Assembly (NCBI GenBank): GCA_028292625.1
Contig: JAQGLY010000069.1
Coordinates: forward strand, 1 to 64,000
Origin: Herbaspirillum sp.
Lineage (GTDB): Bacteria > Pseudomonadota > Gammaproteobacteria > Burkholderiales > Burkholderiaceae_D
DNA length: 64,000 nt
Direction of reading: 5' to 3'
This document shows positions 14,181 to 16,850 of the stretch, piece after piece; positions within the stretch are counted from its first letter, which is position 1, and each line of letters begins with the position of its first letter. The position numbers and the translations under genes are program-made. The notes under the pieces were generated by a model. The model made no database searches. It was not told the origin of the DNA and saw only the letters and a program-made list of their open reading frames with translations.

Positions 14181-14497
14181 TTTTTACTGAAACGAGGTGC
14201 TACAATTTCGACAATCGAAAGTCGCCTTTCACCACCGGACTTCGCGTTGTCGAAACTGTTTCCAGAAATTGTTTTTGTTGAAGCGACAGTAGATCTGTGT
14301 AAATTGAGAAGTGCGGCGCGGCGGAACTCCGCTGTTTTTCGAGCTGTATATTAGGAGCGTTCGTATCTGGTATCTGTCAGGTCGACGCCGCGTCGAAACA
14401 AGCGCCGCAATTTGCATCGCCCCGATCACAGGGCGGACGGAATTGGAGACGACCGGATCGTCGTCCGGTCAACAACGGATTGAGTAAAGGAATAAGC

Positions 14498-15688
14498 ATG
14501 CTTTCTTGGGATGATGAAGTCGCCGCACCGGCGCCACGTGCACCGGCCCCTTCGCAACTGCAGCCGCAGCAGCAACGGGCGGTTGAAACGCGCGCCCATT
14601 TTTCCGATGTCGCACTGAATCCGGCATTGGTTTCCCGCAGCGATGCCCAGCCGCAACCGGCCGACGTGGCCAGCCGGGTCAATGCAGCGGACAAACGCAT
14701 CATCAATGGGCATACCGACGTCAATCAATTGGTGCCATTCAAATACAAATGGGCCTGGGACAAATATCTGGCCGGCTGCGCCAACCACTGGATGCCGCAG
14801 GAAATCAACATGCAGCGCGATATCGAGCTGTGGAAGAATCCGAACGGCCTGACCGAGGACGAGCGCCGTCTGGTCAAGCGCAATCTGGGCTTTTTCGTCA
14901 CCGCCGATTCGTTGGCCGCCAACAATATCGTGCTGGGCACCTACCGTCACATCACCGCGCCCGAATGCCGCCAGTACCTGCTGCGCCAGGCTTTCGAGGA
15001 AGCGATCCATACCCATGCGTATCAATACATCGTCGAATCGCTGGGCCTGGACGAGGCGGAAATCTTCAACGCGTACCACGAAATCAAATCGATCCGCGAC
15101 AAGGATGAGTTCCTGATCCCGTTCATCAATACACTGACGGATCCGCAGTTCAAGACCGGCACCACCGACTCCGACCAGAAATTACTGAAGTCGCTGATCG
15201 TATTCGCCTGCATTATGGAAGGCCTTTTCTTCTACGTCGGCTTCACGCAGATCCTTGCGCTGGGCCGTCAAAACAAGATGATGGGCGCCGCCGAACAGTA
15301 TCAATACATCTTGCGCGACGAGTCGATGCACTGCAATTTCGGCATCGATCTGATCAACACCATCAAGATGGAAAACCCGCATTTGTGGACGCCCGAATTT
15401 CGCGAAGAAATTAAATCGTTGTTTTTAAGCGCGGTAGAGTTGGAATATCGTTACGCAGAGGATACAATGCCGCGAGGTGTACTAGGTTTGAATGCGCCGA
15501 TGTTCAAAGGTTACTTGCGATTCATTGCAAACCGCCGCGCACAGCAAATCGGAATTGACCCGTTGTTCGCTCAAGAAGAAAATCCGTTTCCATGGATGAG
15601 CGAGATGATCGATCTGAAGAAGGAGCGCAACTTCTTCGAGACCCGAGTCATCGAATATCAAACGGGCGGTGCACTGAACTGGGAGTAA
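14498..15688 (+). CDS. nrdB: Ribonucleoside-diphosphate reductase, class Ia, beta subunit
   Basis: Provides the di-iron tyrosyl radical for NrdA. 396 aa with a Pro/Gln-rich N-terminal tail (~residues 8-35) and ferritin-like core: iron ligands in [39 protein letters not shown] and ECFF-equivalent [19 protein letters not shown]. The C-terminus ends in [17 protein letters not shown], where the conserved Tyr and last residues dock on NrdA. I chose the ATG at 14498 (AAAGGA upstream) over a TTG six codons earlier. A probable NrdR-controlled promoter lies about 300 bases upstream. Confidence 0.96.
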
Positions 15689-15914
15689 TGGGCGGGCGGT
15701 CAACCTCTTCAGACCAGCGTCGCAATCGGAGCGCCGATCACGCTCCGACATATTGAAACCAGTACTGATTGAATCGATAGAAATCGAAAGGCGATCACCC
15801 AATTTAATGAACAGACCGACACGCTCTGCTCTGTTACTGCCGCTTATCCCGACTATGTCTGGCGAGGCGGCTTTTTCTTTGTCAAACCGTATGGTGGGCA
15901 GGAAAGATATTCCG

Positions 15915-15942
15915 ACGCTGGCATAGAGCCGGCGTTTTTTTT
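15915..15942 (+). terminator. Rho-independent terminator downstream of nrdB
   Basis: Stem CGCTGGC / GCCGGCG (one G-U) with a five-base loop and eight Ts. It lies 227 bases after nrdB, so it ends either a long nrdB 3' UTR or a short upstream transcript leading into the structured region. Confidence 0.85.
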
Positions 15943-16180
15943 GGTTGCCGCCGACGCGGATCTGCCGGAAGGGGATCCGCATCAACGCCCAGCAGGCGTT
16001 TGGGAGGACTCCCGCGGCCAGCCAATATGGCTGAAGCGCTGCATATCTGAGGGGATGCAGCAGTTCAGCTGGTGCCGAATTCATTAGCATAAGCGCAGTT
16101 TGCTTGTGCCGATGAATAATCCGCCGGAGCTCATCGCGATGAGTCCGGAGGGTTTCAATCAAGCTTGATTTTTTCCATCA
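15943..16180 (+). ncRNA. Candidate structured leader or RNA: tandem hairpins
   Basis: At least six consecutive stems: GCGGATC/GATCCGC (15956-15980); AACGCC/GGCGTT (~15984-16000); GCTGAA-GCTGCAT/ATGCAGC-TTCAGC (16030-16070, 13 bp with a 2x2 internal loop and an ATCTGAGGGG loop); ATTCAT-GCATAAGC/GCTTGTGC-ATGAAT (16079-16118, 14 bp); CTCAT/ATGAG (~16130-16143); and the palindrome AATCAAGCTTGATT (16157-16170) followed by Ts. CAGCC at ~16018 can alternatively pair with GGCTG of the long hairpin, suggesting switchable folds. It ends about 17 bases before the H1-like start codon. I do not recognise the family; strand is inferred from the downstream gene. Confidence 0.5.
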
Positions 16181-16196
16181 CGTGAAGGAGAAACAA

Positions 16197-16850
16197 ATGG
16201 CAACAGCAACGAAGAAACCAGCAGCGAAGAAGGCCGTCGCTGCGAAAAAACCTGCAGCCAAAGCGGCAGCTCCTAAGAAGGCAGTCGTAGCGAAGAAGGC
16301 AGTGGCAGCGAAGAAGCCAGTCGCAGCGAAGAAGCCAGTCGCTAAAGCAGCAGCTAAACCAGCAGTGAAAAAAGCGGCAGCCAAGAAACCGGTTGCCAAA
16401 AAGGCCGTAGCGAAGAAACCAGTAGCCAAGGCAGCAGCTAAGCCAGCGGTGAAAAAAGCAGCAGCCAAGCCGGCAGCGAAGAAAGTAGTTGCCAAGAAAG
16501 CCGTCGCGAAGAAGCCAGTAGCGAAGAAACCGGCAGCCAAGGCAGCAGCCAAGCCAGCGGTGAAAAAAGCAGCAGCCAAACCGGCAGCGAAGAAAGCAGT
16601 TGCCAAAAAGGCCGTAGCCAAGAAACCGGCAGCCAAGGCAGCAGTCAAGAAACCGGTAGCTAAAGCAGCAGCCAAACCAGCAGCGAAGAAGCCTGCAGTA
16701 AAGGCCGCGGCTAAGCCAGCAGCAAAAAAGCCCGTGGCTAAGGTTGCAGCGAAGAAGCCTGTCGTTGCCAAACCTGCCGCACCTGCTGTGAAAACTGTGT
16801 TGAACCCGGCCGCAGCATGGCCGTTCCCGACAGGCGCCAACCGTCCATAA
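16197..16850 (+). CDS. Histone H1-like Lys/Ala/Pro-rich DNA-binding protein
   Basis: 217 aa, built almost wholly of KKPAAKAA, KKPVAKKAVA and PAVKKAAAKPAAKK repeats, ending in a non-repetitive tail (PAVKTVLNPAAAWPFPTGANRP). This is the AlgP/H1-like type that binds DNA non-specifically through lysines; it is expected to be disordered. The ATG at 16197 follows GAAGGAG; an upstream in-frame GTG is rejected because it overlaps that site. It is preceded by a hairpin-rich leader and followed by a strong terminator, so it is monocistronic. Internal DNA repeats of 111 bases could allow length variation. Confidence 0.9.
   Translation: MATATKKPAAKKAVAAKKPAAKAAAPKKAVVAKKAVAAKKPVAAKKPVAKAAAKPAVKKAAAKKPVAKKAVAKKPVAKAAAKPAVKKAAAKPAAKKVVAKKAVAKKPVAKKPAAKAAAKPAVKKAAAKPAAKKAVAKKAVAKKPAAKAAVKKPVAKAAAKPAAKKPAVKAAAKPAAKKPVAKVAAKKPVVAKPAAPAVKTVLNPAAAWPFPTGANRP
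16428..16626 (+). repeat. 111-base-period direct repeat inside the H1-like gene
   Basis: The stretch starting at 16428 recurs from 16539 with only a few, mostly synonymous, changes over about 88 bases, a shift of exactly 37 codons. Shorter copies of the same Lys/Ala units occur on both sides. Gain or loss of units would keep the frame. Confidence 0.8.

Follow-up and report, generated by a model that had tools for sequence, protein, structure and literature searches.

A covarying hairpin element ahead of an HC2/histone H1-like gene of Herbaspirillum: a probable mRNA leader

In Herbaspirillum sp., a dense array of hairpins sits between nrdB, a ribonucleotide reductase gene, and a histone H1-like gene, and this locus raises the question of whether the hairpins form an RNA element and, if so, what such an element would do for the gene behind it. 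The window analysed here is a 64,000-nucleotide stretch of DNA, in which nrdB occupies positions 14480-15688 and the histone gene positions 16197-16850 (+ strand). A first-pass annotation had placed the array at 15943-16180 and proposed that it is either a leader with a regulatory role or an RNA not recognised before. It had also named the downstream gene as histone H1-like, which was confirmed: the lysine/alanine-rich product of 217 residues matched PF07382 (HC2) with 57.6 bits, above the gathering cut-off of 40. Our best reading is that the sequence from about 16023 to 16196, in which the hairpins H1, H2 and H3 are followed by the Shine-Dalgarno sequence of the histone gene, is a previously undescribed cis-regulatory mRNA leader that probably acts on translation or mRNA decay. 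Production of the histone-like protein is probably under the control of this folded, hitherto undescribed element.

The whole interval 15943-16180 was predicted to fold at -107.6 kcal/mol versus -85.3 kcal/mol in shuffled sequences (z -4.69; 0 of 200 shuffles as good). The signal was uneven and strongest in 16029-16155: this H1-H3 segment gave z -4.92 against shuffles, the H2-H3 segment by itself (16074-16158) gave z -5.14, and 15943-16017 by itself gave z -1.55, with 19 of 200 shuffles as good. These folds confirmed that the hairpins in 16029-16155 are real and stronger than chance, and the stems were located where the annotation had drawn them. The first third of its interval (15943-16017, + strand) is an unconserved spacer and is not part of the element. 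The interval begins directly 3' of the T tail (ending at 15942) of a terminator-like hairpin (15914-15942, stem 15914-15936, + strand), which was listed by a terminator scan, is aligned in relatives and separates nrdB from the leader.

The two long stems with internal loops noticed earlier correspond to H1 and H2, which, like H3, are read on the + strand. H1 (16029-16070) has 14 pairs, is interrupted by a 2x2 internal loop and ends in an apical loop GAGG. H2 (16079-16117), the first half of the core, has a foot of AUUCAU/AUGAAU, a loop of variable length and, in the predicted fold, 16 pairs with one A.C mismatch. H3 (16118-16154; AAUCCG/..GGGUU in the predicted fold), the second half of the core, begins at the base adjoining H2. 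The heptamer GTGCCGA occurs twice in this region, at 16072-16078 just before H2 and at 16106-16112 in the H2 3' arm, and both copies are retained in many loci of the window's family.

The annotation had stated that stems without conservation in related genomes would speak against it; they were compared among relatives and found to be conserved. The core comparison started from 75 loci found with covariance models, from which five were excluded (L066, L078, L079, L104, L107) and three more were dropped, L068 and L090 because the search expression for the 5' arm failed and L084 because that for H3 failed, leaving 67, or 64 without duplicates. Alignment A4 holds 47 of these 64 rows, from several families. 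Standard pairs filled 96.3% of its 1032 cells (22 pairs) versus 91.7% after shuffling. Eight pairs had two-sided changes, and 0 of 500 shuffles reached any of five measures, in controls that leave shared ancestry in and on loci found with models built on the same structure. Pairing fell to 31-41% when the partners were slid. In the 40 hand-chosen loci of the window's family (alignment A3), H1 had five pairs changed on both sides and 97.7% of cells paired versus 94.5% in shuffles; one measure, further pair types, was reached by 3 of 500 shuffles. H2 and H3 together were supported in these 40 loci on three measures; the count of pairs with two-sided changes was reached by 30 of 500 shuffles and the pair-type count by 2 of 500. 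The alignments support compensatory changes in H1, H2 and H3, and for H2-H3 these appear to extend across genera and families.

G-U pairs made up 136 of the 1032 A4 cells, which favours the sense strand. The arms of H2 were kept while its loop length ranged from 4 to 59 nt, which argues for an RNA and not an operator. The H2 foot was invariant in a comparison whose search expression for the core itself requires that foot, and the three dropped loci L068, L084 and L090, inspected separately, carried AUUCAU and AUGAAU in 3/3. The A.C mismatch was kept in 62 of 64 loci; in family f17 it is replaced by other purine mismatches, with the fold retained. A foot this invariant argues that something specific recognises it and that stability is not the whole reason for its conservation.

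A DNA search of 61 genomes, including the window's own, yielded a match in 40. The match overlapped the leader in 36 of the 61, and the remaining four touched only the leader end or the coding start. Within the genus, the conserved block runs from near 16021 into the histone gene, and the preceding stretch aligns poorly. The covariance search proposed by the annotation was performed with two models and was positive in other genomes. Model R1 was built from 23 sequences, of which 22 belong to the window's genus and the last to a different genus of the same family. At E up to 0.1 it found the element in 266 of 294 genomes and 38 of 44 genera of the window's family, and in 21 of 200 genomes in an order sample. 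Model R2, built on the H2-H3 core of 47 loci from several families, gave a match (E up to 0.01) in 50 of 399 order genomes and, in the class, in 1 of 274, namely the window's own. One R2 match (G058, E 0.008) had no adjoining histone gene and is probably due to chance. A model match and the histone gene were found together in seven families (f1, f3, f4, f9, f17, f31 and f19); H1 was confined to the window's family, and other sequence stands in its place in the other families. The window's own genome has one copy of the element. The exact core pattern gave no match in viral contigs and none in plasmids, and phage carriage was rejected on its absence from the viral contigs.

The element often sits between nrdB and the histone gene. 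As far as gene neighbourhoods tell, it tracks the histone gene rather than nrdB. Directly upstream of an HC2/H1-like histone gene were 71 of the 75 model loci, a few of them judged by eye where the script had chosen another frame, and the four non-linked loci were weak matches (E 0.003 to 0.09). Among the at least 118 exact core matches listed from a named genome collection, found with a strict pattern that detects mainly the window's family, 116 precede the histone gene and two are cut off; 112 of the 116 were assigned by rule (a K/A/P/V-rich frame) and four by eye, one of which (L205) was judged from the gene's first bases only. Several loci keep the histone linkage although no nrdB tail lies within about 1.5 kb upstream. 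In family f17 only 29-66 nt separate the nrdB stop from the core that follows it, and a separate promoter would hardly fit there.

Among the 28 family genomes that R1 did not match, 20 were screened for the histone tail. No tail match was found in 16 of the 20, a set in which eight genomes count as incomplete or contaminated under the limits set by the tool. In three of the 20 the histone frame starts at the contig start, so that the leader would be cut off there, and in one (G070) the histone gene is present and the element absent. Of the 50 R2-matching genomes of the order sample, 35 also matched the histone tail, and 31 of the 66 genomes with a histone tail had no R2 match. Among 18 of these 31 that were inspected, 13, from the more divergent families f10, f20 and f49, had two successive hairpins at the same place when folded from a chosen start; such hairpins were not plainly visible in L294, L305, L306, L308 and L311. 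The mean z of -4.1 over 18 folded segments is biased because the segment starts were chosen, by eye in 13 and at an H2 pattern in five. In family f49 (L302, L303, L304 and L307), GTGCTCTTTG sits directly 3' of H3, and we take it to resemble a boxA antitermination signal. The exact E. coli-type boxA pattern, an antitermination motif, was found in 0 of 6 genomes, so it offers no anchor for this boxA-like sequence.

How such a leader would work can be proposed from the conserved parts. We consider it rather probable that it is a cis leader at which a trans-acting factor docks, at the H2 foot and H3 junction, and alters translation initiation and/or mRNA decay. The interval would be the 5' leader of the HC2/H1-like histone mRNA, with H2 and H3 abutting and H1 before them in the window's family, and the element would act in cis, at a step that follows the onset of transcription. 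The invariant H2 foot with its A.C mismatch, together with the H3 junction, would be the most likely docking site, and binding would change initiation at the Shine-Dalgarno sequence about 30 nt downstream, and/or the decay of the message. In folds predicted for the window's family, this Shine-Dalgarno sequence (16185-16190) is partly occluded by a weak hairpin, H5 (16170-16193, + strand), which pairs it with U/C-rich sequence. It was predicted to be mostly paired in the 40 family loci (mean unpaired 0.26), and only one of the 13 gene starts that were scored in the window was less accessible. H5 was predicted in many family loci, no pair was changed on both sides and shuffles scored equally; as this hairpin lacks covariation, the output step is one that we infer.

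Co-transcription of leader and gene is likewise something we infer, because no convincing promoter was found: a consensus scan gave none, and the best weight-matrix positions were scattered across 67 loci. Control by CsrA was considered for the leader and rejected; no CsrA gene was found in the window's own draft genome (0/1; 99.53% complete) with a search that matched in 3 of 14 control genomes, and CsrA is therefore unlikely as the binding factor.

Other explanations of the same fold were weighed against a leader bound by a factor. The stems could be a passive stabiliser that shields an abundant protein's mRNA from RNases or keeps a standby site and senses nothing. The stems are very stable, and the product is abundant in Herbaspirillum: according to PMC3783465, the HC2 protein Hsero_0382, presumably the orthologue of the window's histone, is the second most abundant PHB-granule protein in H. 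seropedicae. Stability alone, however, needs neither an invariant foot nor an A.C mismatch that is nearly so (62/64), and we regard this explanation as unlikely. A transcription attenuator, in which either H3 or the palindrome and the T run behind it would stop transcription early until a signal relieves the stop, is suggested by the long U run after H3 in some other families (L065, L067 and L298), but the tail after H3 is U-poor in the window's family and the terminator scan listed neither H3 nor the palindrome. The annotation had pointed to this 14-base palindrome (16157-16170) and T run (16169-16174; the feature spans 16157-16174, + strand) and had proposed looking for premature transcript ends near 16175. 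Both are present in the window, but they are genus-specific; the palindrome core CAAGCTTG occurs in 29 of 30 close loci but in 2 of 40 family-wide loci, which argues against a conserved terminator before the gene, and the suggested early end, which rests on them, loses its footing outside the genus. We consider attenuation quite unlikely. Proximity to the start codon, a mostly paired Shine-Dalgarno sequence and a palindrome and T run that are not conserved together point to control after initiation. The mutually exclusive CAGCC/GGCTG pairing that had been noticed is also present here (16019-16023 with 16029-16033), but all five pairs can form in only 2 of 30 loci, the window's included, and a switch of this kind was rejected as not conserved beyond the genus.

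Direct binding of a small molecule by the H2-H3 core, as in a riboswitch, would agree with a compact fold that has invariant residues and a cis position near the start codon. Most of the invariant residues, however, belong to a plain helix, the loops are free to vary and the gene that follows has no metabolic role, which makes a riboswitch very unlikely. We find it highly improbable that the stems, self-contained as they are and followed within the genus by a T run, mark a separate, trans-acting small RNA with its end at H3 or the palindrome: nearly all of the exact core matches listed stand just before the same gene, the own genome has a single copy and the T run is not conserved. Translation of a leader peptide that controls the histone gene is scarcely credible. 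Its 10-codon frame (16055-16087, MQQFSWCRIH), in the H1 3' arm, stays intact in 33 of the 40 family loci, but the changes in intact frames, judged by eye, mostly replace residues (Q2->E/K, W->R, C->Y, R->Q/P), with one synonymous change (TTC->TTT in L083); an SD-like GAGG almost abuts its start, and the other families are without H1.

The Rfam scan recommended by the annotation gave no family at its cut-off for the leader. With Rfam 15, the only above-cut-off match in the window was a tRNA elsewhere; 18 diverse loci of the element had no match at cut-off, and each of the 10 matches from a permissive scan of 15600-16400 fell far short of its own cut-off. With the covarying stems and the 71/75 linkage, this result supports the proposal of a regulatory leader or unrecognised RNA. 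A description of the leader was not found in the literature searched, in the accessible parts of the papers; most subscription papers were outside its scope, so this is not proof that the leader is unpublished. The word histone is absent from the main texts of PMC4603805 and PMC2864571, and PMC10175445 gave no hit for histone or nrdB.

As far as searched, the leader is a new RNA family within a known kind, structured mRNA leaders. It resembles the Burkholderiales sucA motif and SAH riboswitch, which are named in PMC4603805, in that conserved and covarying stems stand just before one gene in a single bacterial order; the present leader differs in having another gene and other stems, and reached no Rfam cut-off. 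The gene behind it belongs to the same class (PF07382) as bpH1 of Bordetella and the HC2/H1-like genes. The accessible text of PMC2848022 describes the BpH1 protein and its growth-phase regulation (made in exponential growth, repressed in stationary phase, dispensable), a sign that this protein class is regulated, with no mention there of a leader RNA, and reports such proteins in Bordetella, Burkholderia, Herminiimonas, Minibacterium and Ralstonia.

An abundant, little-studied class of bacterial histone-like proteins thereby gains a specific, testable candidate control element. Its conservation looks sufficient for a new RNA family entry, the invariant residues can be mutated, and natural variants in about ten families can be compared. 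Replication-dependent histone mRNAs of animals carry a conserved 3'-end stem-loop, which is like the leader in that a conserved hairpin goes with a histone mRNA; its 3' location sets it apart, the organisms and proteins are unrelated, and the likeness is analogy only. It is a tentative and somewhat unlikely extension that the leader represents an order-wide, undescribed RNA family with its own RNA-binding factor, tying chromatin-protein synthesis to growth or DNA replication. If true, such a family would in principle be a bacterial counterpart of the animal histone mRNA stem-loop, and a dedicated factor, should one bind the leader, would invite the question of how DNA-packing protein is adjusted to growth in these bacteria.

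Three minor observations concern the flanks of the element. The nrdB 3' region (15790-15942) is apparently conserved in relatives too and has two hairpins with a T run after each, which could be tandem terminators or an element of the 3' UTR. The histone ATG is preceded by an in-frame GTG (16182-16196) that would add five residues (VKEKQ) and overlaps the Shine-Dalgarno sequence. The C-terminal tail of the histone (16776-16850; KTVLNPAAAWPFPTG) is far better conserved than the repetitive body.
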